A program made the position numbers and the translations under genes. The notes below the pieces were generated by a model. The model was not told the origin of the DNA, did no database searches, and saw only the letters and a program-made list of their open reading frames with translations. Shown here piece after piece: positions 1 through 20,002 of a DNA stretch of 22,490 bases (within the stretch, counting starts at the first letter, position 1; each line of letters opens with the position of its first letter). Source of the DNA: a virus; the IMG/VR virus record IMGVR_UViG_3300048010_000058, positions 1 to 22,490 of that record; one strand, given 5' to 3'.

Positions 1-3000
1 ATCCACGGAGCATAGTAAAAACTTTCTTCTCACTCGGTTTGAGTTTGTTGACAGCGGTTTCATTTCGCAACGCAGTTACAATACGTTGATGTGATTTTGG
101 CTGTGCCTCGGCACGAGTTGGGTTAAAACCAAATAAGTTACTTTCTGAATTTCCAAACCTACGAGATAGGGCTTCCGCTGTGGTGTCGTACATTTGTTTT
201 AGACCAGCATCGAACCAACGCCCCATAGGATTTTTACTATCTGGTAAGGCACTTAACGCTCTTGTCATTGGTTGAAGGATACGAGCCATCTTGCCGTGAA
301 TACGTTCATAGTGACCGCCACTACCATCAGCGGGTTCAGCAAAATCGGCAACATAGTTCATGCCTGATCGACGTATGATCCCTGATTGAGTGTCAGTTGT
401 TAAAGCTGTGCGTACCGCTTCAACCTCACCAGTTTTTAAACTCTTACCACGACGCATATTCATAGTCGCTTTTAGGAAGTTTGGATCAGCACCGCCTTGT
501 TCTAAAACATGGGCGGCTCTCTTAACTGCATCCTCACCACCATCAGTTGCAACACGAGCCTCAGACATGATAAAGCTATTAAGTCCTGATCCTATTTCTT
601 TCTCGCCCAACAATGGTTTAGCGTGTAACAACTCTGGACTATCGACACTGCGAACATTCTTTGGACTGACAAGAACAGTCTCACCATCTACTGTTATAGT
701 AGAATAATTATTGCGCCTCATAACTCTCCGTAGTTCTTCGGCACTACCAGCGATATTAGACAGGGTTTCAAACACTTGACGACCAGTAAACAAGCCAACA
801 TTGTCTTCTATTGCTCGGTCTACCTGTCGAATAATCTCAGGTGAGTTTGCTGTTCTTTTGATAGCATCAGTAATACCCTTAACAACATCGGATTTAAATG
901 TCATTTGATGCCCAAATACGGCTGGCTTACTGTCCTTCAAAAAGACTGCATTCGCTTTAGTCATATCAGTAGCACCAAACCGTTCGATCTCTTTACCTAC
1001 GACATCATCAAACAAGTAATGGTCCCCTAAATCACTAGAAGAACCATCAGCCCTCATACCATTGATGCCATTACGAACCGCTTCAGATTGGTCAACTAAT
1101 TCAGATACTAATTCCTTACGGGCTGTTGGTGCGCTTTCAATAATCTTATCACGCATATTTGCCATAGTATTAGTCGGACGGTCTGTGATCTGTGGCATGT
1201 TGCCAAACATAGGGTCTACATTTGCCCCTGTTACAAAGAAAACCTTTACATCGTCTGAACCAGTAAAGTCTTTTACTGCATCAACACTTGCTTGTGTCAG
1301 ACGACCTATGGTTTCACTTGCATATTCGGAAGCAAATTCCGCTGGCACTTCGTTTCCATAAACAGCGGCGGGAGAACCGCGAGACAATACACTGTCTGCT
1401 TTCATATCACCGTACATAGTCAGAGGTAAAAACCTTTGACGTGCTTGGGGATTTACAATTAGCCCATTAACCGAATACGCAATTGCTTCGCGCATAGCAT
1501 CACGAGCGTCATTGATTGCATCCTCTACCTCAAACCCATCGACCTCTGGCAACGTGTCTTTGATTTGTTTCATAAGTACACGGTTAGCTTGCATGTCTAC
1601 ATCCTCAACTACAAGCTGTTCAAGAATGCTATCAGCATCATATCCCATTCGTGCCGCTGTTTTTTCTAGTAGATTACGTGTACTGTCTTCCAAAATATGA
1701 GAAGGGTATAACCGCTTCGATAACTCTCGAACCGTTTGTGTTATATCATCAGTCTCTAGGTTTGCAGCTAATCGTCTAACTACGTTTCGGAACTCTTTGA
1801 ATGCGTCTGTCTTAGTGCTAGGCGACATATTAAAACCTAGACCTACCATTCTCATAGCAAGCTTACGGGCAGCATTCATTTTCTGTGGTGTTCTGTGCTT
1901 AATCTCTCCAAGAAAATCAGACAGAATAAATGGTGTGCTTTGTCCTATACCAACATCAACCTCACCGCCCCTGTCAAATGCAGCCTCAACTTTAGTTGCA
2001 TTAATGACAGCTTGGCTATCAGGTACTACTGCTTTCTTTTTCTTATTAATACTACGACGTTTAAATTCCCAAGCAACATCTTGGATTTTCTTTTTATCGC
2101 CCGTGCCTATTAAACCTTCGCGCAATATTGCAGCCAACTCTGGAGATTTAGCCATTTGGTATGGCCCTTCGGGACCAGCTTTTGTTGTTCTTTGGATAGT
2201 GGCTGGGCCAGAAACATCTAAGGTTGTCAAAAGTATTTTTTGCATTTGGGTGGCTATGTTAATAGCCTTTTTACTTTTTGATAAATCCTTAACGTTTGTA
2301 GCTATTTCTTCCAATTTACCCACAAGAGGAACTAAGTCTGGATATTCCGTTGCTGCAAACCCATCGAACTCGGTTTCATTAAAATCTGTTTTCTTAGATT
2401 GTAATGCCTTGACCGCTTTCTCGACTAAGTTCTTACGCCTACCTCTAGCTTGTTTTGTTTTCTTAAAGTTTTCGTCGGCCCTTGCACTTTGCTCTATAGC
2501 TTTCATGCCAGTTTTTTGACGTTGTTCTATTGTAAGAGCGTCGAACTGTGCGGTGGGAATATCACCATGCTCTAACCGATAGTATGCGTCATTGATTTGG
2601 TTCATAGCCTGTTCCATAGTCGGAACTATTTCATCCTCATACAGTCTTCGTAGCTCTTGGTAATCCTCTAGAGGATACTCCGTTGCAGACGTTACTTGTG
2701 GATCAAGGTCTGCATCCGCTTCCCCTTCAAAATTACTAGCATTAACAGCCTGTCCATCATCACGAATAGTCTTGTTTATTTTTCGACCAATGCCCAAACC
2801 TTCAAGGCGGGTAACTATCCTTTTAAGTTTTTTACCGACATCATTTTCCTTGACTGCTTCTAACATACCAGAATAGCCTTTGAAGTCTTGACCTTTACGC
2901 CTTGCGTATGCTTTCGCATCATTCTCAGTAGCAGTTAGTCTGCGAAGTTGTGCTTCTAGCCCACTCTCAGGCTCTTTGATTTTTTCAATAAACGTACCTA

Positions 3001-6000
3001 TATCCGCGTTCTCAAGGGCGCGAGTTATCTCACCCTTACCTACCCTCAAGTTTTCGTAGTTTGCCATTAATGTTAGAGAGAACTTATTGGTCGGGTCTTT
3101 TGGACGTAAGAACTGCTTACGCATTTGTAAGTCTTTACGCTTAATTAACTTGTCAAAGATAGGCTCTAACTCAGGATCAAGGATTTCCTTGCGAGACATT
3201 ATATGCCAAAGCTTTTTCACGAGCTTCATAGTGTTTTTCCAGAACGGCTCATTAGGCCACATCATCAAATCAAATTTGTGGTTCATAAATAGAGCGAACT
3301 GGTTAGCAAAGTATTCGGCTGGTGAGTCTAATGCGTTACCAAAACCAACAGCATCCTTACTCCCTTTAAAGTATGGGCTGCGCAAAGCAATATCACGCAT
3401 AGCATCCCTATCACCTTCTTTATACAAGCGACCTTCAGCATCGTAGTAGCCGTCTATTGCATTCCAAAACTCGCTTTTGTCTCGGTTCGATAGCAAGTTG
3501 TTATACAACCAATGCCCTAGCTCATGTCCCACTATATGAGTTTCGCTTAAACCTTTTGTCTGTGCAGTGTTGCCAATAGCATCAGCATTTAGCTGAATAC
3601 GATTAAGCGCATCATTACGATCATTGACATACCTACCAAGCACATCAGCATCCATGTCAGCACTTTCAAAAATCGGTGCTAACGTATCAGGAACAACCAT
3701 TCGGATCATGCGCTCTATGTTTTTACGAGTGGTGGGGCTTGCGCCAGTAATAATGCTGTTGACTTGTTCAATACTGGTATCAATATCAACCGCTGGTTTG
3801 CGGATACCGTTAGGCGCAATGCTACCGTTTAAGTTATGTAAGACAGATAATATTTTTAATCTTTGTTTGTTGTTCATTGGAATAGTTTGACCATTAATAG
3901 TGTAGTCAATTTCCCAAGGTGCATTATCTATAACAGCTTCCAGACGGGTTAAGTCTCTAAGAGTTACTTGATGCCCATGAATGTCGTCTGGTTTTCTGAT
4001 GTCACCGATCAGGTTTATGTTTTTATTTCGAGCGAGAGAGTAGGCAAAATAAAGGCTATTAAGTTCATCGGTTGTGAGCGAGTTAGTTTCAATAACCAGT
4101 GAGTCGCCACGAGATTGCAAATCGAGTGGTGCTGGCGGTGCTGTTGGATCATTACGATTAATTTCACCTACTTTGTTACTAGCATTCAACGGCTCAAAAG
4201 CTTCGACCATTGCATCCATGTCGGACACTTTGCTTCGCATCGAAACTGGAACGTAACCAATATAGTAGTCATTAGCGTTCTCATTGCCGATCAATGCCTC
4301 TGCGCTTTTACCACTGTCAACTTGTCTTTTGGTCAACACTTTCGATAAAATTACACGACCAGAACCATCGAACTCTTTGCGAGGGATAGCCGCAATAACT
4401 TTATTCCCACGAGTGTTGGGTATACCCGCCTTAACTCTTTCAATTATTTTACCATCCCGCCCCACTACATCTATCTTTGTAGGCGTGACCATTGCGTTTT
4501 CTGCGCGTTCTTCTAGTCGCTGAACTTTTGCATTGAATTGTTCTTTGGTAATTAATTTTTTCTCAAGTTGACTGACTAGAGATTTCTTTTCATTTGTGAA
4601 CTGTGTGTCAGTAAAGATCGGAGCGTCTTCACCTTGCAGTAAAGAGTATTCAGCATTTGTATTAATGCCCTGATCTTGCATAGCTTTGAGGGCAGTGTTT
4701 AGATTTTTAAATGATTTGCCAGTAACAGGTACATAGTATGCCGTTATTGAACCGTCTTCTCTTGAAGTCACACCATCCGCATGTCTATCACCTACGAAAG
4801 AAGTATAACCATAGTATAGTTTACCCTGATCACTTTTAGCATCCTTCTCAGCTTGGATCTTTACTGTAGACTTGGCAAACTCTGGCGGTCTAGTACCAGT
4901 TGCATCGGTAGCAAAGTTACCACCACCAATATTTTTACTGCCCTTGAGTGCGCTTGATACACCTTGATCTGCTTCTACAAAATCAGGATTTTTTACTAAG
5001 CGTCCTGTCTCCATATCTGTAACGAATGGTGGCACATCCTCAAGACGATCCATTGATACTTGGGTACGGTCAGCCTTGCGCCCAAACTCAGGACGCAATC
5101 GACGGTTTAGTTCATTGAATTGTTTGGTTGTAATTTTACCAGCGGCTTTATCTTTTCGTAACTGCTTTAGTTGCGCTGCAATCTTTGGGTCGCTTGTAGG
5201 AGAGCCTATATCTCTCGGTGCTTCTTGTGCATTTGCTCTAGCAATTGCCAAGTTATACAAACGCTCTCTAACATTTGGTGTATCAAAATTAGAAAAAGCT
5301 TCAGTTTTTAACAATCGAGATTGGATAGCTACAATCGGATCACCGTCTAAACCTTCAGCCGCTTTCATAAGCTCTCTAACCCTGTCGTCGGTATCACTTT
5401 CAATTCTTTGAATACGTGGGTTTTCTTCTAGTTCCTCATTTATTGGTGCTTTCTCGGCTGCGTCACCTTCTGTTTTTGATGCCTCTGTACTTAGCGCATC
5501 CTTGGTCGCGTCCTTAACATCATCCTCTGAAACAACCGCTGTGTTACGACGTTCATCAATGATCTTTTGCAGATCATCCATTCCCTTCTTAGCTATTTGT
5601 CCTGTTGCTGGTGTAAGCCGTATTTTATTTTCGGCTATTAAAGCTTTAACCTCTTGGGTGGTTATGATGTCTTTGTTTGCTTCTAGCAATTGAGGCAAAG
5701 TATCTTTAAATGATTGAGATGGTTTAAAATCAGGTAGTTCAGCAACTTCAGCATCGCCAGTGTCGTCAACTCTTACTTTACCACTTTCGACTGTATCTAC
5801 GTCTTCACTAGTACGGGTACTTGTAAACTCTGGTGTATCTGTATCACCCTCTGCATCTGCCTTAACTTCGGCTTCTGGCTCTGTTGTTCTAGCACTTCTA
5901 AATTCTGGTGTTCTTTCACCAGGAAATGTACCACCTTCTCGTACTTCTTCAGTTGTACGTGCGCGAGGTGGCAACCGTTTCTTAGCCGTAGTTGTTTGTA

Positions 6001-7060
6001 ATTCGTCTAGTGTTTTATTGTATTCGGTACGAATAGGAGCAATATCAACACCATTCTTTTGCCCGTCTTGTAGCTGTTTTGCTAAGTCGTCTAGCTTTGT
6101 ATTTAGATCATCGACTAATGTACCATCAGCTTCGATGTCCGAAAGCTCCATATCAATTGTTTCGATCTGTTCTTTAACAACATCACGATCAATGTCTAAA
6201 CTTTCGTCTGCTAATTGAGCATCTAAAGCATCACGCTCACGCGCCAAGGATTGTGTTCTTGTCGTTAAACTTTGACCAAGCGTAGTGTTCTTTTGCCAAC
6301 TAGCTACATCGTCTGCATAATCGCCACCCAAGAACCGATTAAGAACTGGCAAGCTTCTACCAACTTGGCTTGTCCCAAATGTGTCTAAGGCTGTCCCAGC
6401 CGCACCAGACAAGGCACTATCAAGAGCAACAGAGCCAGCAAATCGACCAACATCAAAACCATCTGATACGCCTTGCTGTATCTCTGTGGCTTGCTGCATT
6501 GCGTCAAGACCACCACCAACAGCACCACCTATAATCGCCTCTTGTTTACCAGCTTGCAAAGCACCAGCAGTACGGGCAGCTTTTTGAGATTGTTGAAGAG
6601 TTTTACCGCCAGCACGGGCGAGGTTAAAGGCAGTTTTTGCTTTTGTAACTTGCCCAGCAACAGGAATAAGGTTTGTCGGATCAAGAATAGCGGCCTTACC
6701 ATAGTCCCAAACACGGTCTAGTGTCGTACCTCGTTGCGGCGCATTTGCCCATATCTTTGATAGTCTAGCTAGGCGGTCACGATCATCACCAGCTAATGTA
6801 CTTTCGACTAAAGCACCAGCCGCACCTAGAGTATTAACGTCATTCCATCGTCTATCACCATAGAATTTGTCCCACATGTCAGCATAGTTTTCAAACGTAA
6901 CGCCTTGCGCGGAATAATAATCTCGCACATCTTTAATTGCATCCTGATTAGTGAGCAAATCAACACCATGTAAATCGGTGTAAGATGTAGAACTTTGGGA
7001 AGGTGCGTTGAAAGAAAAGCTTGTGCCAAGGGCATCGCTAATTAATTTATTATCTGCCAT
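1..7060 (-). CDS. Giant virion (ejection) protein with HExxH metallopeptidase motif, C-terminus missing
   Basis: One stop-free frame covers at least 2353 codons from the ATG at 7060 to the left edge, where it runs off. GGAG lies 9 bases before this ATG; an in-frame ATG at 7075 would leave that site inside the gene. Visible parts: a Gly/Ala-rich helical stretch at about residues 130-260 (starting DPTNLIPVAG) that could insert in membrane; acidic linkers with a repeated TPEF-x-S-x-RT-(T/S)-E motif around 385-425; H1179-E-L-G-H1183 followed by SPAEYFANQF with E1249, the ligand layout of anthrax lethal factor-type (M34-like) zinc peptidases; and long charged helices to the edge. It follows a gp14-like and a gp15-like gene, so it sits where T7 has gp16 (about 1318 aa). 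I see no transglycosylase motif at the N-terminus. Inference: it is packaged in the capsid and ejected with the DNA, with the protease acting during assembly or in the host. Coding status is sure; function is moderate. Confidence 0.85.
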   Translation of the reverse strand, partial: MADNKLISDALGTSFSFNAPSQSSTSYTDLHGVDLLTNQDAIKDVRDYYSAQGVTFENYADMWDKFYGDRRWNDVNTLGAAGALVESTLAGDDRDRLARLSKIWANAPQRGTTLDRVWDYGKAAILDPTNLIPVAGQVTKAKTAFNLARAGGKTLQQSQKAARTAGALQAGKQEAIIGGAVGGGLDAMQQATEIQQGVSDGFDVGRFAGSVALDSALSGAAGTALDTFGTSQVGRSLPVLNRFLGGDYADDVASWQKNTTLGQSLTTRTQSLARERDALDAQLADESLDIDRDVVKEQIETIDMELSDIEADGTLVDDLNTKLDDLAKQLQDGQKNGVDIAPIRTEYNKTLDELQTTTAKKRLPPRARTTEEVREGGTFPGERTPEFRSARTTEPEAEVKADAEGDTDTPEFTSTRTSEDVDTVESGKVRVDDTGDAEVAELPDFKPSQSFKDTLPQLLEANKDIITTQEVKALIAENKIRLTPATGQIAKKGMDDLQKIIDERRNTAVVSEDDVKDATKDALSTEASKTEGDAAEKAPINEELEENPRIQRIESDTDDRVRELMKAAEGLDGDPIVAIQSRLLKTEAFSNFDTPNVRERLYNLAIARANAQEAPRDIGSPTSDPKIAAQLKQLRKDKAAGKITTKQFNELNRRLRPEFGRKADRTQVSMDRLEDVPPFVTDMETGRLVKNPDFVEADQGVSSALKGSKNIGGGNFATDATGTRPPEFAKSTVKIQAEKDAKSDQGKLYYGYTSFVGDRHADGVTSREDGSITAYYVPVTGKSFKNLNTALKAMQDQGINTNAEYSLLQGEDAPIFTDTQFTNEKKSLVSQLEKKLITKEQFNAKVQRLEERAENAMVTPTKIDVVGRDGKIIERVKAGIPNTRGNKVIAAIPRKEFDGSGRVILSKVLTKRQVDSGKSAEALIGNENANDYYIGYVPVSMRSKVSDMDAMVEAFEPLNASNKVGEINRNDPTAPPAPLDLQSRGDSLVIETNSLTTDELNSLYFAYSLARNKNINLIGDIRKPDDIHGHQVTLRDLTRLEAVIDNAPWEIDYTINGQTIPMNNKQRLKILSVLHNLNGSIAPNGIRKPAVDIDTSIEQVNSIITGASPTTRKNIERMIRMVVPDTLAPIFESADMDADVLGRYVNDRNDALNRIQLNADAIGNTAQTKGLSETHIVGHELGHWLYNNLLSNRDKSEFWNAIDGYYDAEGRLYKEGDRDAMRDIALRSPYFKGSKDAVGFGNALDSPAEYFANQFALFMNHKFDLMMWPNEPFWKNTMKLVKKLWHIMSRKEILDPELEPIFDKLIKRKDLQMRKQFLRPKDPTNKFSLTLMANYENLRVGKGEITRALENADIGTFIEKIKEPESGLEAQLRRLTATENDAKAYARRKGQDFKGYSGMLEAVKENDVGKKLKRIVTRLEGLGIGRKINKTIRDDGQAVNASNFEGEADADLDPQVTSATEYPLEDYQELRRLYEDEIVPTMEQAMNQINDAYYRLEHGDIPTAQFDALTIEQRQKTGMKAIEQSARADENFKKTKQARGRRKNLVEKAVKALQSKKTDFNETEFDGFAATEYPDLVPLVGKLEEIATNVKDLSKSKKAINIATQMQKILLTTLDVSGPATIQRTTKAGPEGPYQMAKSPELAAILREGLIGTGDKKKIQDVAWEFKRRSINKKKKAVVPDSQAVINATKVEAAFDRGGEVDVGIGQSTPFILSDFLGEIKHRTPQKMNAARKLAMRMVGLGFNMSPSTKTDAFKEFRNVVRRLAANLETDDITQTVRELSKRLYPSHILEDSTRNLLEKTAARMGYDADSILEQLVVEDVDMQANRVLMKQIKDTLPEVDGFEVEDAINDARDAMREAIAYSVNGLIVNPQARQRFLPLTMYGDMKADSVLSRGSPAAVYGNEVPAEFASEYASETIGRLTQASVDAVKDFTGSDDVKVFFVTGANVDPMFGNMPQITDRPTNTMANMRDKIIESAPTARKELVSELVDQSEAVRNGINGMRADGSSSDLGDHYLFDDVVGKEIERFGATDMTKANAVFLKDSKPAVFGHQMTFKSDVVKGITDAIKRTANSPEIIRQVDRAIEDNVGLFTGRQVFETLSNIAGSAEELRRVMRRNNYSTITVDGETVLVSPKNVRSVDSPELLHAKPLLGEKEIGSGLNSFIMSEARVATDGGEDAVKRAAHVLEQGGADPNFLKATMNMRRGKSLKTGEVEAVRTALTTDTQSGIIRRSGMNYVADFAEPADGSGGHYERIHGKMARILQPMTRALSALPDSKNPMGRWFDAGLKQMYDTTAEALSRRFGNSESNLFGFNPTRAEAQPKSHQRIVTALRNETAVNKLKPSEKKVFTMLRG

Positions 7061-7112
7061 GTGTAGGTACTCCATTTAACCTTGCTACAGATTAAATGAT
7101 TGTACCCTTTCA

Positions 7113-7125: not shown

Positions 7126-9606
7126 TTAAGGAAGAATTTTAATAGGGTTCATGTTCCCATCATCATCAACCAAAGGATTTTCAAACAAATCAAAATTAGG
7201 GAATGCGTAGTTGAACCTATCAACAATGCTATTATAAGTTCCCGAAATAGGATCTATTATTTGTTCTTCCACTGTTCTTGCGCCAGCGGCATCACGCATT
7301 TCCGTAGCTGTTGGCATTTCCATACCAAGTTCTTCAAAAATCATTTTCATTACAGTTAGGTAATCAGTCACTTCGGAACCACCAGAAACTAAACGATCAA
7401 GAGGATTATTTATATCTTGACCTTGGTACGGACCATACGGAACTTCTCCCGTCGATGTTCGTCTGTTATCAATTGATCCTTGATACTGCGTTTTAGGAAG
7501 TAGGTTTTTGTCAGTTTGTTGTAACCTTGCAAACACCAAGTTAGCAATTTCCGCTGGTGTTTTTTCTACACCCTGTTCTGTGAAATTATCCATAGCAACT
7601 TTTACTTCAGCCGCGTAATTAGATACTATCTTAGGAAGTTGACTTGCCTCTGGGTTTGGTGGATTTCCTTCGGAAGCAATTGTCATTCGTCCTTTTAGAT
7701 CAAGAATGGTATTCGCTATACCTTCGCCAACAGTTTCAAGATCATCAGCTTGCTTTCTTAGCTTATCAACTTCGGCTCTAGCCGCCTTAACAGCGTTTCG
7801 ATCATTGTTGTAAAAATCATTAGCCGCTAATTGCTCTAGTCTATCTGCTTTAGAACGAAGGTCGCTTGCTGATACCATCACTTTGTTCAATTCGGTTCTA
7901 GCCTTATTGCCTAATTCTTGAATTGAAATGACATTTTGTGAACTTACTGTTTCCGATAATAATTGCGCACCAGTATCTATAATCTCAGTAATGTCGCCTC
8001 TATCTATTTGACTTAAAATTTGAGAAGCTTCATTATTTACATTTCCTTTTACGGCATCAAGCGTTGTTTCCGTTTGATCGAAAATATCTTTTTGATCTCT
8101 GATCATTCCTTTAATTTGCTTTTCGACTTCACTAGCAAAGTCACGATCACCTAGCTTTACAACATCAGCCATTCCAGCATAACCCTTTTCAGTTAGTGCT
8201 TTCTGGATTGCTATACGCTCAATATCGTTTAACCCTTCCCCACTTCGTAGCATTTCGTCATATGCTTGAGCAAAATGGCTTTGATCTAAAATTACTTCTG
8301 CATCAGTACCTTCAGCACCTTGTTCTCGTTTGCGAATGTCGAGAGCCGAACGAGTTATGTTTGCAACAATTGATTGGTCGTTTGCATTTATTCCATACAT
8401 CCCCATAGCGGTAAGGTGAGTTGCAACTTGATTGCTTAATGCAGCAACATCAATGTTTTGCTGTGTGCTTGCCTGATCACTGTCTGGATTTAAAGCAACC
8501 TCACCTTCAATTATGTTCTTAATTAATTCTAAATTATTTTCATCTGAATATTGACGATTTGCTAGGGCAGCTTGGGTAGACGTGATAATGTCCTGTTCTT
8601 CTAACCTGTTCTTTTCGTCTAATACTTCTCCACGCTTATCATCCAAGGCTTTTTCTAGATCGGACATATATTGTGCTGGGTCAGTACCTTTTAAATCAGG
8701 ATCAGCTTCAATAGCTAACTTCAGTTGTTCAGCTATTTCTGCATCCGTTTCGTAGCCGTCTGTATTAACCTTATCAAGAACGTTTTTATAAATAACTTTT
8801 AATTTACTTTTATTGGTGTCAGCTAATTCAGTTCTTCTTAATTTTAATTGGGCACGACCTTCTAGTTCTATTTGTTGTTTTTGTTGGTCGGTAAGCAAAT
8901 CATTGTATTTTGCATACTCCGCTTCCATAAGACTTTTAAAAATATTATCGTCTTCTAAATCTACCCTTTGAGCCATATCAAGAATATTAGCATTTGCCGC
9001 CACAAAAGCAGTGTCTTTTGCTTTTTGTAGTTCACTTGTAAACTGTTTCTTTAGATCATTGCCCCATTTTTGACTATACCCTTCGCGCAACAAACTATCT
9101 AAATTTGCTTGTGAGGGATTTTCTCTAAAGTTTTGAATTAGAGGTGCGGCTTCCTGTTGAAACTTTGCCCATCCCACACGATTTGCTTGGGCTGTAATTG
9201 AAGGAAGTAAGTCGTCTGATATTAACGTGCCATATATTTCTTTGGTCATTGTACTTGCGGTTTCTGCATCGGTAGTCTGCAACAAGTCAGCCATATAATT
9301 TGTGGCTTCACCCGCAATCTTAATATTTTCTAATTTAAGTTTTCTACTGGCTTGATCTTTTGCAAGCTGGGCTTTGCGATTGTACTCAGCAACATTACTT
9401 TCCATCAAAGACCGAGTAGGTAATACTGCCCGAAAAGATTTATTGTTACCCGCTAAAGAGCCAGCAAACTTTTCTCTTTCATCAGCACTAGACCCAGGAT
9501 TAGTTGCAACAAAGTTTGCATACAAGGCTGCGTTTTCTTTTCTTCTCGCCGCAAGGTCTTTTTCACTATCAGAATAACCTTGCTGGAACGAACCAAAATC
9601 TATCAT
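7126..9606 (-). CDS. Putative internal virion protein, T7 gp15-like by position
   Basis: The protein has 826 residues, is almost wholly charged and helical, and has no signal peptide or clear membrane span. Long segments at about residues 230-360 and 590-640 look like coiled coils (Glu/Lys/Arg-rich with spaced Leu). It lies between a 384-aa gp14-like gene and the giant gp16-like gene; T7 gp15 is 747 aa, so order and size fit the middle ejection protein that helps build the DNA channel across the periplasm. The ATG at 9606 has AGGA about 10 bases upstream and follows the previous stop by 7 bases. I do not recognise the sequence itself, so the name rests on context. The stop is followed within 5 bases by a promoter-like octamer. 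Confidence 0.8.
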   Translation of the reverse strand: MIDFGSFQQGYSDSEKDLAARRKENAALYANFVATNPGSSADEREKFAGSLAGNNKSFRAVLPTRSLMESNVAEYNRKAQLAKDQASRKLKLENIKIAGEATNYMADLLQTTDAETASTMTKEIYGTLISDDLLPSITAQANRVGWAKFQQEAAPLIQNFRENPSQANLDSLLREGYSQKWGNDLKKQFTSELQKAKDTAFVAANANILDMAQRVDLEDDNIFKSLMEAEYAKYNDLLTDQQKQQIELEGRAQLKLRRTELADTNKSKLKVIYKNVLDKVNTDGYETDAEIAEQLKLAIEADPDLKGTDPAQYMSDLEKALDDKRGEVLDEKNRLEEQDIITSTQAALANRQYSDENNLELIKNIIEGEVALNPDSDQASTQQNIDVAALSNQVATHLTAMGMYGINANDQSIVANITRSALDIRKREQGAEGTDAEVILDQSHFAQAYDEMLRSGEGLNDIERIAIQKALTEKGYAGMADVVKLGDRDFASEVEKQIKGMIRDQKDIFDQTETTLDAVKGNVNNEASQILSQIDRGDITEIIDTGAQLLSETVSSQNVISIQELGNKARTELNKVMVSASDLRSKADRLEQLAANDFYNNDRNAVKAARAEVDKLRKQADDLETVGEGIANTILDLKGRMTIASEGNPPNPEASQLPKIVSNYAAEVKVAMDNFTEQGVEKTPAEIANLVFARLQQTDKNLLPKTQYQGSIDNRRTSTGEVPYGPYQGQDINNPLDRLVSGGSEVTDYLTVMKMIFEELGMEMPTATEMRDAAGARTVEEQIIDPISGTYNSIVDRFNYAFPNFDLFENPLVDDDGNMNPIKILP

Positions 9607-9615
9607 TCTATTATC

Positions 9616-10770
9616 CTAGAAATTATTTACTGACTTGTAGTTAGACCACCATCCACCAAGACCTTTAGAAGCTGAACTAGCCATAGTCTGTTGATTTGCA
9701 GCCATAGTACCCAAGGCACTTACAGAGTTTGCATTTGAAATGTTTGCCTGACCATCCGCTGAATATGAGTAAGGTGCGGTAGAAAGGTCGAGCGTTTGAT
9801 TGATAAAGTCATTCGCTAAAGAGTTTTCTGCACCTGTTAAGTTTAACGCATTGGTGTAATCAGATAATGCCGTGTTATTTCTCATTCCTTGTAATGCGCC
9901 AATCTCCTCTATGTTTCGACCCCGCATTGCTTTTTCGTTACCATAGAAATCTTGACCGTATTGACCGCTACGCAGATCATTATTTAAGGTAGTTGTGCCA
10001 TAGTTTAAACTATCGGTTACTAGGTTGCGAGACATATTACGTTCCGCATTTGTCATGTTTTGTTGGTTAGAAGCCGCTTGCTGTAAGCCAGCGATATATT
10101 GTTGAGCATCACCAACAGCCGCAAGCATATCACTGTTATAAGCTTCCCGTGCCGCATCTTGAGAAGCACGTTCCATTTGGATACGAAGAGTGGAATTTTC
10201 CATACCCTCTGGAATATTAGCTAGTGCTTTAGAATACTGTCGATTTAATGCACGTTCAGTATTTTGATTGCGAAGGTTTTGGAAAGACATAGCAACCTGA
10301 TCTTGAAGTTGTGCATACTTCAACGTATCTGGCGCGGTCATTTTTGCTTTTTGATCTTGGAAGTAAACTTCATCACGACCTTGATTTAATTTTACATCCG
10401 CAAATTCTCTGAACATGTCTTCCATGCCACGAAGTCTTGCGCGATCATAATCCGTAAGATTATCAACCTCTTTACGGTTTGCAGCTTCTTCGGCTGAACG
10501 ATTTTTAGTAACAAAATTGTTAAACTGATTTACCGTCGAAGGGGTAACTTGCCCAAAGTCTCCATAAGTTGCCAATAGACGCGAAAGATTGTCCGACATA
10601 ACAGACGACCCTTCGGCGTACAGATCAGCAACTTCCTGATTACGAGCAATGTCAGCATTTATCTGTTTCTCAGTTAGATCGTTAAGCCTACCAGCTTCAC
10701 GAGTTGAACGGATGGCTGAACCTAAGTTTAGCGCACCCATTCCCAAATCAATTACGTCTGCCCAACTCAT
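9616..10770 (-). CDS. Putative internal virion protein, T7 gp14-like by position
   Basis: The protein has 384 residues. The N-terminus (MSWADVIDLGMGALNLGSAI) is a Gly/Ala/Leu amphipathic stretch that could enter the outer membrane. Residues 30-250 are Gln/Asn/Arg-rich helices, and the tail is Ser/Asn/Gly-rich. T7 gp14 (196 aa) forms the outer-membrane part of the ejectosome, has a similar Gly/Ala start, and precedes gp15 and gp16, as this gene does. The start ATG at 10770 is well supported: the ribosome site AGGAG overlaps the TAG stop of the upstream repeat-protein gene, which suggests coupled translation. Sequence similarity to gp14 was not tested; the assignment is from order and composition. 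Confidence 0.72.
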   Translation of the reverse strand: MSWADVIDLGMGALNLGSAIRSTREAGRLNDLTEKQINADIARNQEVADLYAEGSSVMSDNLSRLLATYGDFGQVTPSTVNQFNNFVTKNRSAEEAANRKEVDNLTDYDRARLRGMEDMFREFADVKLNQGRDEVYFQDQKAKMTAPDTLKYAQLQDQVAMSFQNLRNQNTERALNRQYSKALANIPEGMENSTLRIQMERASQDAAREAYNSDMLAAVGDAQQYIAGLQQAASNQQNMTNAERNMSRNLVTDSLNYGTTTLNNDLRSGQYGQDFYGNEKAMRGRNIEEIGALQGMRNNTALSDYTNALNLTGAENSLANDFINQTLDLSTAPYSYSADGQANISNANSVSALGTMAANQQTMASSASKGLGGWWSNYKSVNNF

Positions 10771-10781
10771 GCGGGTGTCTC

Positions 10782-12578
10782 CTAAAATGTATCGAATGTT
10801 CCCCCAAAGCCAGCACGTCTACGGCGTTGGAAACCGCCCGTGCCAGTAAGAGAGGCGTTGCCAATAGGAACATTAACATAGCGCACCTCGCCTGTGTCTC
10901 TGTCTCTGACCGCCCGTCTTTCATAAACACCATCTTGAGACATGAATGTTGGGATTGGCTGTCCAAAATAATTTGGCTGCGCTGCGAAACCAAAAGCGTT
11001 CATATAAGCTAGAGGGTTGTAGTTTGCAGAGTTTTGATTACGCATGGACTCGGCTATTAACTGCAAAATTTCTTCTCGCGTCATACCGTCTGTGTCTTGA
11101 GTAGAACCATTAGTAAGTAATGCAAGCTGTTGACGAAGGTTTGCAATCTCAGCTTCTAACGCAGTAATCGTACCGTCATTGTTTTGATCGGCAAATTGAT
11201 CATTAGCACTACCGTTATTAACTTGTGACTCACCAGTTCCCTCACCAGTTCCCTCACCAGTTCCTTCGCCAGTACCTTCGCCAGTTCCTTCTCCCGTACC
11301 TTCACCAGTACCTTCACCAGTGCCAGTGCCAGTTCCTTCACCTTCACCAGTTCCAGTTCCAGTACCCGTGCCAGTACCCGTGCCTGTTCCTGTTCCTGTT
11401 CCTGTTCCAGTGCCGCCGCCGCCACCGCCGCCACCGCCGCCGCCGCCGCCACCGCCGCCGCCGCCAGATCCAGTACCGCCACCGCCAGCAATTTCACTGA
11501 TAATACTAGCTAAACCACCGCCATCACCCTCGTTAGGATTATTTTCCTGACCGCCGCCGCCAACATTTGTGGGTACTGGAAAAGTACCAGGACCACCTGT
11601 CGGGATAACTGCGGGACCATTCTGGTTAGGGTTATTGTCTTGACCGCCGCCACCAACATTAGGGGGTACTTGTGATGGATCACCATAATCTGTTCCCGAA
11701 ACCGCGCCCGTCATATTAGCTTTTGCCTTACCATCAGGCCCAAGGGTCCAGCCGTATTCTTCAACAAGTATTTGATCTACGTTTGAAGCGTACCCACCAC
11801 CTTCGGCATTAGGGTTATTGTCTTGGGCAGTGTTATTCATCACTGCACCACCACCATCACCAGCGTTGGGATTGTTGTCTCCTACAATAACAGAACCGCC
11901 GCCATCACCAGCGTTGGGGTTATTATCTTGTCCACTAGAGGCAGCAGCGGCAGTCGCATCTGCACTCGGATAACCTGATGAGCCTGTTACGGCTTGTACT
12001 GTATTACCACCGCCAGCATTAGGGTTATTATCTTGACCGCTACCACTCCCCATATTAGCCGCCATCGCATCTAAACTCGTGTAACCTGACGACCCTATCG
12101 AACTGCTATTACTGCCAACATTAGGGTTATTGTCTTGACCAGTAGTGGTAACTCCAAGCGGTCCATCAACATTGGGGTTGTTGTCTAAAACAACACTTAA
12201 ATCCCCATCGACGTTTGGATTATTGTCTTGACCAGAACCGCCAACCGAACTTGCAGAGCCGCCACCGTCACCCGCATTCGGGTTATTATCTTGACCACCC
12301 TTATCGCCGCCGCCATCTCCCGCATTGGGGTTGTTATCTTGCCCACTACCCGCATTAGTTGTAGAGGCTGCACTTTCTATTGGGGATCGACCATCATTAA
12401 GAATAGTTTCCATTCCCCCGCCATCATCGGCATTTGGATTGTTGTCTAGTGCGCTACTACTGCTACTGCTACCACCGCCACTACTAGAGGAGCCGCCGCC
12501 ACCTTGAGATGCGCCACCAAATACAATTTTGGGGTTAAGAGGGTTTAATCCTAGTAAATCAAGAAGCGTGTGTTTCAT
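10782..12578 (-). CDS. DNNPN-repeat, glycine-rich stalk protein with EF-hand-like loop
   Basis: The protein has 598 residues and I recognise no family. Visible in order: a short N-terminus (MKHTLLDLLGLNPLNPKIVF); Ser/Gly linker; twelve copies of [D/E]NNPN, often as QDNNPNAGDGGG, spread over residues 45-350; a tract of about 19 Gly; about 60 residues of alternating Thr-Gly and Glu-Gly; a loop DQNNDGTITALE near residue 465 that fits the 12-residue EF-hand pattern; a Leu-heptad helix (IANLRQQLALL); and a conserved-looking end with GGFQRRRRAGFGG. The layout suggests an extended fibrous virion protein with a C-terminal oligomer and anchor. The start overlaps the end of the acyltransferase-like gene (AAGGGAAA before the ATG). 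It sits between tail-fibre-region and ejection genes, so it may be a tail appendage or a core-associated protein. The low-complexity tract produces long spurious frames on both strands. Confidence 0.82.
   Translation of the reverse strand: MKHTLLDLLGLNPLNPKIVFGGASQGGGGSSSSGGGSSSSSSALDNNPNADDGGGMETILNDGRSPIESAASTTNAGSGQDNNPNAGDGGGDKGGQDNNPNAGDGGGSASSVGGSGQDNNPNVDGDLSVVLDNNPNVDGPLGVTTTGQDNNPNVGSNSSSIGSSGYTSLDAMAANMGSGSGQDNNPNAGGGNTVQAVTGSSGYPSADATAAAASSGQDNNPNAGDGGGSVIVGDNNPNAGDGGGAVMNNTAQDNNPNAEGGGYASNVDQILVEEYGWTLGPDGKAKANMTGAVSGTDYGDPSQVPPNVGGGGQDNNPNQNGPAVIPTGGPGTFPVPTNVGGGGQENNPNEGDGGGLASIISEIAGGGGTGSGGGGGGGGGGGGGGGGGGTGTGTGTGTGTGTGTGTGTGTGEGEGTGTGTGEGTGEGTGEGTGEGTGEGTGEGTGEGTGESQVNNGSANDQFADQNNDGTITALEAEIANLRQQLALLTNGSTQDTDGMTREEILQLIAESMRNQNSANYNPLAYMNAFGFAAQPNYFGQPIPTFMSQDGVYERRAVRDRDTGEVRYVNVPIGNASLTGTGGFQRRRRAGFGGTFDTF
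11226..11486 (-). repeat. In-frame low-complexity tract (poly-Gly, Thr-Gly, Glu-Gly codons)
   Basis: On the plus strand the tract reads as runs of CCGCC/CCACC units (about 11410-11470) next to runs of CCAGTN, CCTGTT and CCTTCN hexamers. It encodes poly-Gly, then (TG)n, then (TGEG)n of the 598-aa protein. Third-position changes between units show that selection keeps the peptide. Hexamer units keep the frame when copies are gained or lost, so copy number probably varies between related phages. Confidence 0.85.
11532..12446 (-). repeat. Twelve dispersed [D/E]NNPN peptide repeats
   Basis: Eleven DNNPN and one ENNPN units are spaced from about 13 to 60 residues. Most are preceded by GQ or AQ and followed by AGDGGG, VDG or AEGGG. 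On the plus strand each shows as a variant of (g/a)ttNGGgttattgtc. Codons differ between copies, so this is an old, peptide-selected repeat rather than a fresh DNA duplication. Asn-Pro-Asn-Ala is a known beta-turn unit, and the Asp/Asn/Gly richness could bind metal ions, but it does not match the RTX nonapeptide. Confidence 0.85.
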
Positions 12579-12978
12579 GCCATTTTCCCTTATTAGGCCA
12601 CGATCCTACGCGGCTTGCGTGTCTAAAACTTAGAACGGTTTCTACAAGCGGATACTTGTCTTTAATTTTGCTCCGCATATCTCTACAAATTCTTAGAACG
12701 TCGGCACGACCACCGTTGGCTACCATGTCAATAAACCAGAGCTGATCGCCACTTTCTCGTTTAAATGCTTCTGGCCCATACCATTCTAAATTTTCAGCCT
12801 CTTTATCAGTTAAGAAGCAATAAGTAATAAACCCAATAGGTTTATCACCGTCATAGTAAACGTGAAGTTTATCGTTATCGTAAGCTGCAACTAACCGATA
12901 CCAAAGGAACTTACTTATGTACTCTCTGTATTTTGGGCAACTTGCCCAAATCTCGATTGCGTCGCGCAATTTGTCCAC
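12559..12978 (-). CDS. HlyC-like (toxin-activating acyltransferase, GNAT-fold) protein
   Basis: The protein has 139 residues. WASCPKYREY (11-20) and SGDQLWFIDMVA (76-87) line up with the two signature blocks of HlyC-type lysine acyltransferases (in HlyC about WASSPLHRNW and DRKWFIDWIAPF). The catalytic Asp is present (D84), but the catalytic His of the first block is Tyr17 here, so activity is uncertain. T7 gp13, an internal protein of 138 aa that I recall also carrying GDQ-x-WF, has a similar place before gp14. This may therefore be a gp13-type assembly factor with the same fold. The start is GTG at 12978, one base after the stop of the 88-aa gene; no ATG occurs early enough to replace it. 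Its 3' end overlaps the repeat-protein gene by 20 bases, so the two are translated together. Family similarity is from memory of the motifs. Confidence 0.75.
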   Translation of the reverse strand: MDKLRDAIEIWASCPKYREYISKFLWYRLVAAYDNDKLHVYYDGDKPIGFITYCFLTDKEAENLEWYGPEAFKRESGDQLWFIDMVANGGRADVLRICRDMRSKIKDKYPLVETVLSFRHASRVGSWPNKGKWHETHAS

Positions 12979-12979
12979 T

Positions 12980-13246
12980 TTAGTAGCCCATCCGTTTTCT
13001 AACCATGTCGTCTACATTGTAGAACTCAAGCATCCCTGTCTTTGGATTAAATGAACCAGCACCACCGATGTCTTGAAGCAGCTTCATTGTAAATGGCGAA
13101 GCGTGGACAACCATCGTGTCACCATGCCGCCCTTGCTCTGCTATTTTTTCACCAGCCGCCATAGCATCTTTACGTTTTGAGATGCTTGTACCCGTGTTAG
13201 GGCCGAATACATCCGCTGATCCGAGAATTGCTGTAGAAAACGACAT
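12980..13246 (-). CDS. Small protein sharing the GDT-VH-NPxTG-EFY module
   Basis: The protein has 88 residues. Residues 38-76 (GRHGDTMVVHASPFTMKLLQ onward) match the N-terminus of the 497-aa protein in the pattern GRxGDTxxVH-x6-KLLxxIG-x-G-x2-NPxTGxxEFY. Short phage virion proteins with this pattern are common, but I know no function. It is the first gene after the octamer at 13295, with a strong AAAGGAGTT site before the ATG, so it leads a transcription block that continues into the acyltransferase-like and repeat-protein genes. It may be a copy number-two form of the module used as a plug, linker or attachment domain in the particle. Confidence 0.8.
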   Translation of the reverse strand: MSFSTAILGSADVFGPNTGTSISKRKDAMAAGEKIAEQGRHGDTMVVHASPFTMKLLQDIGGAGSFNPKTGMLEFYNVDDMVRKRMGY

Positions 13247-13294
13247 ACTTTAACTCCTTTGTTTATGTGACTTTAACCTTTTATTAGACGGTCA

Positions 13295-13302
13295 GTCGTC
13301 CC
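13295..13302 (-). promoter_or_regulatory. Octamer GGGACGAC, putative late phage promoter for the 88-aa to ejection-gene block
   Basis: An exact copy of the junction octamer, 4 bases after the stop of the 497-aa gene and about 49 bases before the ATG of the 88-aa gene. CATAAATTC precedes it on the minus strand. GACG and CGTC just inside the transcript could make a 4-bp hairpin. Function is inferred from the five-site family. Confidence 0.6.
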
Positions 13303-13306
13303 GAAT

Positions 13307-14800
13307 TTATGCAAACATTCCCGCCGCCGCTGTTGCGATAGACCGTGTGACACCATTTACTGAATATTCGGCTGTGTTAGCCGCTGGATTACCGTCACGC
13401 CTTTTGATTTCATCCTCTAATTCTTGAAGACGCTCTAACCAAAGCAAGTACAATGGCGTACCCTTTTCATAGTTATCACCCTCAGACTTTAAGCGAGCGT
13501 ACTCAGTGTTTAATACACTATCATCATAGCCCTTAAATCTTTGTGCTGAACGAACTCGCCCCGTATACCCAGCATCAATTTTTAAATCTCCGCTTGCCTC
13601 GCCGTATGCCAGCATGTTTGCTACATCTTTCATAGCAGTAGACATACCAGTGTCGTCTGAAGTATAGACCGCCTCGACGTAGCCGCTATTTTCGTCCCCG
13701 ACATATAATGCAAGTTTGTTATCTGGTGTTAGTTGTACGGATATAGAACCCGCAAGTTTGTCTTGCAATTCTGTGTCTAATTGCGAAACCATTTGGTCGA
13801 TTGCATTTGACGCTGTTTCAGCAACTACATAAGCATCAACACTCTGTTGATCTGTAGCCACATAAAAAGGCTTGGCAGTACCGTTATAAGAAGAAACTGG
13901 CTTGCCCGTTCCATCTGTGTAGTCATATTCTATAAACTTACGACGCTCTGGTAATGATGTAAAATTTGGACCCTTATATGTAAGGTTATTACTTATCTCC
14001 GAATAAGTCCCGTCCTCACCTTCTGCACCAGTTGTATCAGTCTCACCAGTTGAGGTTGATTGCGTAGTCGTTTCAGTATCATTGTCACGGTTTCTTTTCC
14101 GCGCCCTTTTCCTATACTCTTCAGCGGGATTGGTTGTATTAGTTTTAGTACCAGCTTTTTTAGAGAATAACCCACCATCATCAAGCGCATTTGCCGCCAC
14201 CTTTCCAAGACCATAAGCAATAGGACTAGCCACCATTCCTACGACGTTGGCAACAGTTGTAAACGGGCTGTCCTTGTCGCCATCAATGCCGCCTTTTAAA
14301 CCCTTTCCGCTTTCTGCTTTAGAGATATATCCATCACCATTTTTATCTAAGTTAGAGAAATCACCATGACCGTAAGTGTCTCCCTTCATACCTATGCCGC
14401 CGCCATCAAACATATCAGTAAAGGACTCGTAGGTATAATCCTTGTCGTCATTCTTACTGTCTTTGTCATTAAGGCCATTGTTAGCGTGGGATGCGCCAGC
14501 CATAGAATTAGAGACAGCGGCAATACCCGTGACCTCGTTATTTGGATCATTGTCATTGTCATAAGTGTTACCAGATTGCCCAGGACCACCACCGTCAATC
14601 ATGTCAGTCCAGTTGTCATAACCAGCAACGTAAAACTCTTTTAATCCAGTGTCGGGATTGATTGTTCCCGCACCAATTTTTTCTAAGAGTTTTACTTCTT
14701 CTTCATTAACATGGACAAGTTGAGTGTCTCCAAAGCGTCCCTTTCCAGATAGGGACGCGGCTATACGTTTCATTTGCTCAGATGTTAAATTATCAAACAT
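13307..14800 (-). CDS. Virion-associated protein with GDT-VH module and EF-hand-like loop
   Basis: The protein has 497 residues. Residues 20-58 carry the module shared with the 88-aa protein. Two 17-residue repeats follow, WTDMIDGGGPGQSGNTY (64-80) and FTDMFDGGGIGMKGDTY (127-143). A canonical EF-hand loop, DKNGDGYISKAE (152-163), comes next, then a hydrophobic Gly/Ala stretch (181-205), a basic patch KRARKRNRD (231-239), a Thr/Ser/Glu linker, and a mixed alpha/beta C-terminal domain (about 260-497) ending in a charged helix. The ATG at 14800 overlaps the stop of the fibre gene, so translation is coupled. Its place directly after the fibre gene suggests a tail or fibre-associated protein, but I do not recognise the C-terminal domain. 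The hydrophobic stretch could alternatively mark a membrane-active protein. Confidence 0.78.
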   Translation of the reverse strand: MFDNLTSEQMKRIAASLSGKGRFGDTQLVHVNEEEVKLLEKIGAGTINPDTGLKEFYVAGYDNWTDMIDGGGPGQSGNTYDNDNDPNNEVTGIAAVSNSMAGASHANNGLNDKDSKNDDKDYTYESFTDMFDGGGIGMKGDTYGHGDFSNLDKNGDGYISKAESGKGLKGGIDGDKDSPFTTVANVVGMVASPIAYGLGKVAANALDDGGLFSKKAGTKTNTTNPAEEYRKRARKRNRDNDTETTTQSTSTGETDTTGAEGEDGTYSEISNNLTYKGPNFTSLPERRKFIEYDYTDGTGKPVSSYNGTAKPFYVATDQQSVDAYVVAETASNAIDQMVSQLDTELQDKLAGSISVQLTPDNKLALYVGDENSGYVEAVYTSDDTGMSTAMKDVANMLAYGEASGDLKIDAGYTGRVRSAQRFKGYDDSVLNTEYARLKSEGDNYEKGTPLYLLWLERLQELEDEIKRRDGNPAANTAEYSVNGVTRSIATAAAGMFA

Positions 14801-16361: not shown

Positions 16362-16364
16362 GCC

Positions 16365-18835: not shown

Positions 18836-20002
18836 TTATGCAACCAAATCCCAATTTTTGATGTAGGTGTGAACCTTGTCTTGAAGCAATTCTAAGCCGC
18901 ATTCCGTTAGGTACTCGTGCTTAACTGCATCAAGATCGGCAGCTTGTCTATCACGTAGAAGCTGCGTATCACGCCCTTCCATATAGCGGTACTTCATATA
19001 CGGGAAGTCAATAATGACCGCCGCATTTTCCATACCAGGAACCATACGGAATTGTGGGTGTAGATGTACGGCTAATGTACCCGCAAATGTCTCATAACCT
19101 GTCAAGCTTACGCCATAGGTGTCTTCGATCACATGTGGAGTCCATCTGTCCTTACCGAATTTCTGCAAGTGTCCAGCAACTTTTGCTCCGCAGAACATAA
19201 TTTTTTGCTTGGAACCGAATGCAAAAATGTCTTCGATCAATGCACGATCAAATTGATCCTCTGTCATTGTGCTTGAAGCCGTTGAACGGTCAATCACGTT
19301 TGACAAAGTATTGATCAACCCGCCAGTGAAACGGCGTGGCTGTGATGTTGAGCCGTTGCTTTCGTTCTTCTTACCGAAGAACATTGCTCTCTCAATATCC
19401 ATCATGTGCATTTTTAAGGCTTTGGTTGCCATTTCGTCTTCTTTGTCGCCAGTCCTTAGATTTGTGGCTCTCAAAGTTTCGGTCACGGTAAATGCGGTAC
19501 GAAAAATTTGTGTAAAATTTTCAGCTACCGTCGCGTCAAAACTCACTCCTGTTGGTGATGCCGCGCCTTCTTCATATGCTGTACCAGCTATGAACAATTC
19601 TGCATTATCAGCAATCTGGTGTGATGTACCGCCGATGTTTCTTTCAACAGTTAAAGCTGTTGCTGTCGCATCCGCTGTACAACGCATTACCTCGCCTGTG
19701 GTTGCGTTTACAACAATAGAACCAGCAACCGCAAACAAGTTGTCGTTACCAGCGTCTACTGTAATAGCTGTAGTAGAAGTCGAAGCTACTGCCCCGTTTA
19801 CTGTCAGCTTTCTGTCAGGCAATTCGTCCCTAAAGTTCTTGAACTCAGGATCGTCTGTTGCCTCTGAACCTGTCATTGCTAACAGTCCGTTCAAAGGCGC
19901 ATTGCCGTTTGGTTCCAAGAGCGTAAAAAGCTCGCGGTAGTTTTTCGGGCGAAAGTCTGTATTAAACTGACCTGTACCCCGAAGTCCTTGAATACCAGCC
20001 AT
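18836..20002 (-). CDS. Major capsid protein, SU10 (DUF5309-like) HK97-fold family
   Basis: The protein has 388 residues. MAGIQGLRGTGQF at the start, a beta-rich insertion (about 68-150; the E-loop/I-domain region), then FTQIFRTAFTVTETLRATNL, DIERAMFFGKKNES, RRFTGGLINTLS, FAFGSKQKIMFCGAKVAGHL, YGVSLTGYETFAGTL, HPQFRMVPGMENAAVIIDFP, YRYMEGRDTQLLRDRQAADL and KHEYLTECGLELLQDKVH are the conserved blocks I know from SU10/DUF5309 capsid proteins. It forms the icosahedral or prolate shell. It has its own octamer promoter, a structured leader of about 150 bases, a strong AAAGGAG site, and a terminator after it, all fitting a highly expressed gene. The scaffold gene is just upstream. Confidence 0.92.
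   Translation of the reverse strand: MAGIQGLRGTGQFNTDFRPKNYRELFTLLEPNGNAPLNGLLAMTGSEATDDPEFKNFRDELPDRKLTVNGAVASTSTTAITVDAGNDNLFAVAGSIVVNATTGEVMRCTADATATALTVERNIGGTSHQIADNAELFIAGTAYEEGAASPTGVSFDATVAENFTQIFRTAFTVTETLRATNLRTGDKEDEMATKALKMHMMDIERAMFFGKKNESNGSTSQPRRFTGGLINTLSNVIDRSTASSTMTEDQFDRALIEDIFAFGSKQKIMFCGAKVAGHLQKFGKDRWTPHVIEDTYGVSLTGYETFAGTLAVHLHPQFRMVPGMENAAVIIDFPYMKYRYMEGRDTQLLRDRQAADLDAVKHEYLTECGLELLQDKVHTYIKNWDLVA

Follow-up and report, generated by a model that had tools for sequence, protein, structure and literature searches.

A predicted lethal factor-like zinc-peptidase domain and a degenerate second copy in a giant gp16-like protein of a CRP-810-type marine phage

We found that a marine phage sequence encodes a giant gp16-like ejection protein carrying what is very probably a functional zinc-peptidase domain (D1) of the kind seen in polyvalent proteins, judging from its motifs, its relatives and its predicted fold. 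A homologous second domain (D2), degenerate in this phage, lies further down the same chain. The class itself, zincins of polyvalent ejection proteins, is known; what is new is the gp16-like host protein and a tandem of domains with reciprocal loss of their zinc sites. The window analyzed here is the whole 22,490-nucleotide stretch of the IMG/VR record IMGVR_UViG_3300048010_000058.

A giant gp16-like protein among virion genes

The giant ORF (2..7075, minus strand) is open at the window edge, with 2358 aa inside the window. Its full length, 3083 aa, was seen in a near-identical relative, L003, in which the searched domain is identical to that of the window and the remainder almost so. Residue numbers given here are counted from the first ATG of the ORF. 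The true start is probably M6, since the matching methionine in another relative (L004) is the first Met after a stop codon; the initial annotation counted from this in-frame M6, so its H1179 is H1184 here.

The protein begins with a module (residues 37-283; 6227..6967, minus strand) that Pelagibacter podoviruses have in their 'internal virion protein D'. The N-terminal ~250 residues matched 16 records in total by tblastn, CRP-810 among them, and the module matched protein D of HTVC121P by blastp (E 1.2e-14). The HTVC121P protein is shorter (1281 residues) and has no HExxH, so the zincin lies in an extension of a gp16-like protein. The initial annotation had called the ORF an ejected virion protein, and the homology agrees with a gp16-like internal virion protein, with packaging and ejection predicted from homology and gene order. 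By homology, the giant protein is likely to be carried in the particle and to enter the cell with the DNA.

Downstream of this module, a linker (residues 284-700; 4976..6226, minus strand) was found to be poorly conserved in 26 aligned ORFs and to evolve fast (dN/dS 0.17-0.22 in four close pairs). In 227 of 231 loci, a count that includes overlapping ones, a single ORF contains both D1 and the C-terminal region. Over 26 diverse ORFs, including those that have lost the D1 site, the D2 and C-terminal regions were better conserved than D1; the view that D1 ranks with the best conserved parts holds for dN/dS in close pairs and fails for this wide alignment. The best conserved part family-wide was found outside the window, at residues 2650-2945 of L003, which hold 19 invariant columns in 26 sequences and have no Pfam match; one scan with this region gave 450 relatives.

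Searches of the whole giant protein against Pfam, PHROGs and PDB sequences gave nothing useful. No recognized effector domain was found in the 3083 aa of L003, where Pfam gave one chance-level match (E 0.055), nor did Pfam find an RNA polymerase domain in the giant chain. A polymerase was also rejected on its motif: DxDGD occurs in just 13 of 197 giant ORFs and is therefore not a feature of the family.

The neighboring genes are consistent with a virion block. An 826-aa protein adjoining the giant ORF (7126..9606, minus strand) and a 384-aa protein (9616..10770, minus strand) would be gp15-like and gp14-like, respectively, by position; a search of the phage collection with the former gave nothing at E up to 0.01. 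Upstream of the giant ORF are an SU10-type capsid gene and a minor-tail-like gene. The major capsid protein (18836..20002, minus strand; Pfam SU10_MCP, E 3e-38) is 71% identical over 99% to the capsid protein of Roseobacter phage CRP-810, and we assign the window to a marine phage of the CRP-810 type. CRP-810 is the type of a marine phage family and an isolated member with a cultured host (PMC11288001). A 598-aa Gly/Ser-rich protein (10782-12578, minus strand) contains a QDNNPNAGDGGG-like unit repeated about a dozen times, as well as long poly-G, GT and GE runs, and a 497-aa protein (13307-14800, minus strand) has an EF-hand-like calcium loop at residues 147-163, where the match to Pfam EF-hand_5 (E 0.0013) is below the cut-off.

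Zinc site and predicted fold of the first domain

D1 (residues 1034-1333; 3077..3976, minus strand) was recognized as a lethal factor-like zincin domain from alignments (A2 and A4), an AlphaFold2 model and comparison with the PDB. The initial annotation had read HELGH and SPAEYFANQF as a zinc-protease signature, and this motif pair is real. HELGH (H1184/E1185/H1188; 3512..3526, minus strand) is followed by SPAEYFANQF (residues 1251-1260; 3296..3325, minus strand), which places E1254 (3316-3314, minus strand) 70 residues past H1184, and both motifs are conserved in relatives. The predicted zinc ligands are H1184, H1188 and E1254, with E1185 as the predicted general base that activates water. 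HELGH is the sole HExxH both in the part of the protein within the window and in the entire 3083-aa ORF of L003. When the protein was shuffled 2000 times, HExxH turned up in 23 of the shuffles, and in none of them was it followed, 50-90 residues on, by a motif of the E-aromatic-F-A/G type. Conservation in relatives is much stronger evidence than the shuffles, and the two together rule out a chance motif.

We examined this conservation in several scans. A scan with the D1 alignment returned 80 loci, of which 79 have HExxH in the matched domain and the remaining one ends before it. Across the 50 aligned domains of A2, with a mean column identity of 22%, the H, E, H and distal E are invariant. 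Conservation of E-F-A-N-Q in both sets is partly selected because the scan pattern, [AQ]E[YF]FANQ, contained the motif. This bias does not affect a scan with the C-terminal region, which is blind to D1, nor the clade that has lost the D1 site. The C-terminal scan (best 80 of 450 relatives) gave 79 loci, and D1 was present in 45 of them, with H, E, H and E intact in all 45; some of these are near-identical, and loci overlap or come from the same contig. The H/E/H triad singled out by the initial annotation thus persists in close relatives. Of the 34 loci without D1, 33 have ORFs cut short at the 5' contig end; in the other (L012), a frame change splits the ORF, and D1, its HELGH intact, sits in an upstream ORF of its own. 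Because the best 80 of 450 and, in a second scan, the best 80 of 452 relatives were retained, the C-terminal scans sample the neighborhood of the first sequence. A scan with D2 found D1 in 69 of 80 loci, the other 11 being ORFs truncated at the 5' end.

Purifying selection on D1 is strong among close relatives, with dN/dS of 0.03-0.06 in four close pairs (six pairs were computed; two distant pairs with saturated dS are outside the ranges given in this work). In the clade that has lost the D1 site, HExxH and the distal Glu are gone together in 12 of 12 loci, and P101 and Y158 (domain numbering) are retained. This joint loss of four residues, with P101 and Y158 kept, fits a shared metal. A genome scan returned four loci, one of them on a Poseidonocella contig, and the D1 region searched as DNA had no plasmid match.

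The AlphaFold2 model of D1, built from 49 sequences (pLDDT 86.6, pTM 0.87), shows three strands (102-105, 114-117 and 126-129 in domain numbering), an HExxH helix (145-160) and a Glu helix (219-235), which is the zincin order; E1254 falls on the second of these predicted helices. When the model was compared with the PDB by Foldseek, ranks 1-8 were lethal factor (E 0.10-0.48), and rank 9 was an unrelated chain with the same E as rank 8 (0.48). In VIA-align, the first 44 rows were lethal factor, Certhrax and PPEP, with Z from 7.7 to 5.5, where rows within 1 of each other rank equal and a Z below 8 cannot be relied on by itself; M1 aminopeptidases followed at Z 5.5, within 1 of the PPEP rows. The predicted fold is that of a gluzincin, apparently nearest to lethal factor and PPEP, and the lethal factor-type fold anticipated by the initial annotation came out at the top of both comparisons.

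The initial annotation had also called the domain M34-like. The likeness to M34 (lethal factor, Certhrax, PPEP-1/2/3) stands for the predicted fold, in which these rank as the nearest solved structures though with modest scores, and for HExxH with a distal Glu; formal membership of M34 does not. D1 of the window has no ATLF match, and Pfam as a whole gave none at E up to 10; PDB profile searches with A1, A4 and A3 retrieved no M34 chain. The family has Tyr seven residues before the ligand Glu, where D1 has N1247; at least 90% of the 50 A2 rows have N there. The spacing from H to E, which is 49 residues in lethal factor and 43 in PPEP-1, ranges from 50 to 84 in the relatives.

Profile matches of the relatives were faint. 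ATLF was found in 9 of 50 A2 members (best E 0.011) and in 1 of 10 members viewed singly (13.5 bits against a cut-off of 27.4), no better than matches to unrelated families such as TDH (E 0.0058) and RGS (0.0093). M91 matched 8 of 50 members (best E 0.001) and Tox-MPTase3 matched 2 of 50 (best 1.9e-4). NCBIfam gave weak, scattered matches in 1 of 50 members each, including M3, leukotriene-A4 hydrolase and aminopeptidase N models, and the 'metallo-protease' phrog_87 was found in 3 of 50 (best E 0.0018). With the A1 profile, the M1 zincin leukotriene A4 hydrolase aligned around HExxH, at a non-significant E of 2.1. In a viral library, three uncultured-phage proteins matched D1 (E 7.6e-11 to 1.9e-7), and all three bear the name 'large polyvalent protein associated domain'.

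Among the known systems most like D1 are the zincins of phage polyvalent proteins. The zincin is the commonest domain of polyvalent proteins, and the one in the N4 vRNAP was found and linked to lethal factor, so the idea that an ejected phage protein can carry a zincin resembling lethal factor is already published (PMC5512222). The giant ORF shares with these proteins a zincin in a very large chain (3083 aa) among virion genes, and with N4 vRNAP in particular an HExxH and a downstream Glu helix in a giant ejected protein; it differs from the latter in its gp16-like N-terminus and in having no RNA polymerase domain by Pfam. The structure of N4 vRNAP is the subject of a preprint from 2025 (PMC12633501), which shows an HExxH-bearing C1 domain, which corresponds to gp50 aa 2124-2375 and whose sequence is in PDB entries such as 9pnr. 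The N4 profile matched D1 (HHalign 92.6%, E 4.7e-7) only from the Glu helix onward and with a shifted register, so D1 was not placed in N4's own clade. The N4 profile also matched the HExxH and following Glu region of an 'internal virion protein' of 1337 aa (PDB 9sfn, chain G; E 3e-8), which is much smaller than the giant ORF and was found by the N4 profile, not by that of D1; no paper naming this entry was found in the literature searched. The tape measure protein of P23-45 also carries a metallopeptidase domain (PMC10770324).

A second domain and the pairing of active and lost sites

D2 (residues ~1690-1895; 1391..2008, minus strand) was located by an HMM match in L003 and lies ~600-700 residues downstream of D1. 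The HMM, built from an alignment of 15 intact second domains, matched the L003 ORF with E 7.4e-12 and detected D2 in 73 of 80 ORFs, HExxH being kept in 19 of the 73. D1 and D2 are homologous, HExxH aligning on HExxH (HHalign 95.9%, E 5.3e-9; 0.18% for an unrelated C-terminal profile used as a control). The N4 domain scored only 1.7% against D2.

A direct relative of the giant ORF is gp34-gp36 of CRP-810, of which gp35 holds two HExxH domains. It differs from the window in that both zinc sites are intact and the annotation divides the giant protein into three overlapping ORFs (7992-17632 of the CRP-810 locus), which lie in different frames and overlap by a few tens of bases. This layout may come from a frameshift, an error of sequencing or a genuine split, and it fits separable modules; a relative 93% identical over D1 carries all three regions (D1, D2 and C-terminal) in a single ORF. 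The main text of the CRP-810 paper (PMC11288001) contains no word starting with 'protease' or 'peptidase'.

In the lineage of the window, D2 has RELSK (residues 1783-1787; 1715..1729, minus strand) at the site of the HExxH of intact copies, and the Glu loop is absent. The dN/dS of this dead D2 is 0.04-0.06, which argues that it is maintained and not decaying. The model of the window D2 gives no support to a folded zincin, since it is all-helical and its best Foldseek result (E 0.93) is no match; the case for a former zincin is therefore one of sequence alone. Six loci (L036, L039, L042, L049, L051 and L053) have a half-dead D2, in which HExxH is down to its final His and the distal Glu motif is retained. 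These domains are possibly intermediates of site loss.

We then compared the states of the two sites. Among 133 distinct pairs, five were dropped, with D1 ending before HExxH (L150, L086, L298, L092 and L282). The 128 scorable pairs comprised 72 with only D1 intact, 46 with both, 10 with only D2 and none with neither. The two C-terminal scans (best 80 of 450 and of 452) gave 49 D1-only, 12 both, 10 D2-only, none with neither and two uncovered. In the D2 scan, 67 loci have a D1 that covers the site; it is intact in 55 and lost in 12, and all 12 of the latter retain the HExxH of D2. On a tree of the C-terminal region with 124 tips, a quick build with long branches, the D1-lost rows form one clade (support 94); the state of D2 changed eight times, at least three of these changes being forced by well-supported branches. 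Because D1 was lost once on the tree, the pattern of never losing both is statistically unestablished, and an independent-pairs test had one pair and shows nothing. The counts are suggestive that at least one zinc site is always retained.

More than one copy is found in ~8% of zincin-bearing polyvalent proteins (PMC5512222). A tandem with reciprocal loss of sites is not described for polyvalent zincins in the accessible text of PMC5512222 and PMC12633501. More generally, no description of an active-plus-dead tandem was found in the literature searched, which left subscription journals mostly outside.

Possible roles of the two domains

Taken from N- to C-terminus, the ejection protein of ~3080 residues would consist of a gp16-like module, a linker, D1, a dead D2 and a highly conserved C-terminal region. 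Our main explanation, which we infer and hold tentatively at somewhat under even chances, is processing by D1 after ejection. D1 would cleave the giant chain at the linker or between modules, or would cleave a partner ejection protein, and this cleavage would mature the ejection complex; D2 would be a homologous copy retained for a non-catalytic role. We favor this reading because D1 is present wherever the DNA reaches it and is under strong selection in close relatives, and because the protein is one long chain in nearly all loci, with its N-terminal module on a fast-evolving linker. Against it, D1 is not the best conserved part family-wide, and the N4 analogue is packaged uncut. PMC5512222 lists three options: the protein may process itself, either in the head or once injected, or the zincin may cleave host proteins.

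The last of these, an injected effector with which D1 cuts host proteins (transcription, defense or envelope factors) early in infection, is possible but rather unlikely. The nearest folds are toxins and secreted peptidases, the faint Pfam matches of the relatives include the effector or toxin peptidases M91, ATLF and Tox-MPTase3, and host cleavage is named as an option by Iyer et al. (PMC5512222). However, D1 is found in every locus that reaches it (45 of 45 among the best 80 of 450; 69 of 80 in the D2 scan), it evolves under strong purifying selection among close relatives, unlike a fast-changing effector, and no hint of a host target was seen. A packaged maturation protease of the assembly stage, whose substrates would be scaffold or capsid-interior proteins or the giant chain prior to packaging, is less probable still. 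The gene does lie within the virion block with capsid and tail-like genes, and DdrB of P1, which has a predicted zincin, is cut before packaging, but N4 vRNAP, the closest analogue with data, is packaged unprocessed (PMC5512222). Least probable is a structural or regulatory zinc site in a domain that cleaves nothing: the accessible text of PMC12633501 reports no assay of protease activity for N4 C1 and the dead copy of the related D2 is under strong selection, but the catalytic Glu of HExxH, not the ligands alone, is kept in 45 of 45 loci among the best 80 of 450.

The substrates published for injected phage zincins are predictions, none of them demonstrated in the accessible text of PMC5512222 and PMC12633501. 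This family offers a conserved site and natural site-dead lineages for comparison. The reciprocal loss of two active sites is an evolutionary handle on the need for the protease, and the strong selection on a dead copy suggests that the domain also does a non-catalytic job.

Lethal factor consists of one active and one inactive copy. The two zincins in one ejected chain could, in a reading that we consider doubtful, form a pair of enzyme and pseudoenzyme, in which either copy may lose its zinc site, at least one must stay active, and the dead copy is retained for binding, gating or presenting the substrate. If this were true, the injected zinc protease would be essential to infection, and the tandem would be an independent counterpart of the active-plus-inactive build of lethal factor.
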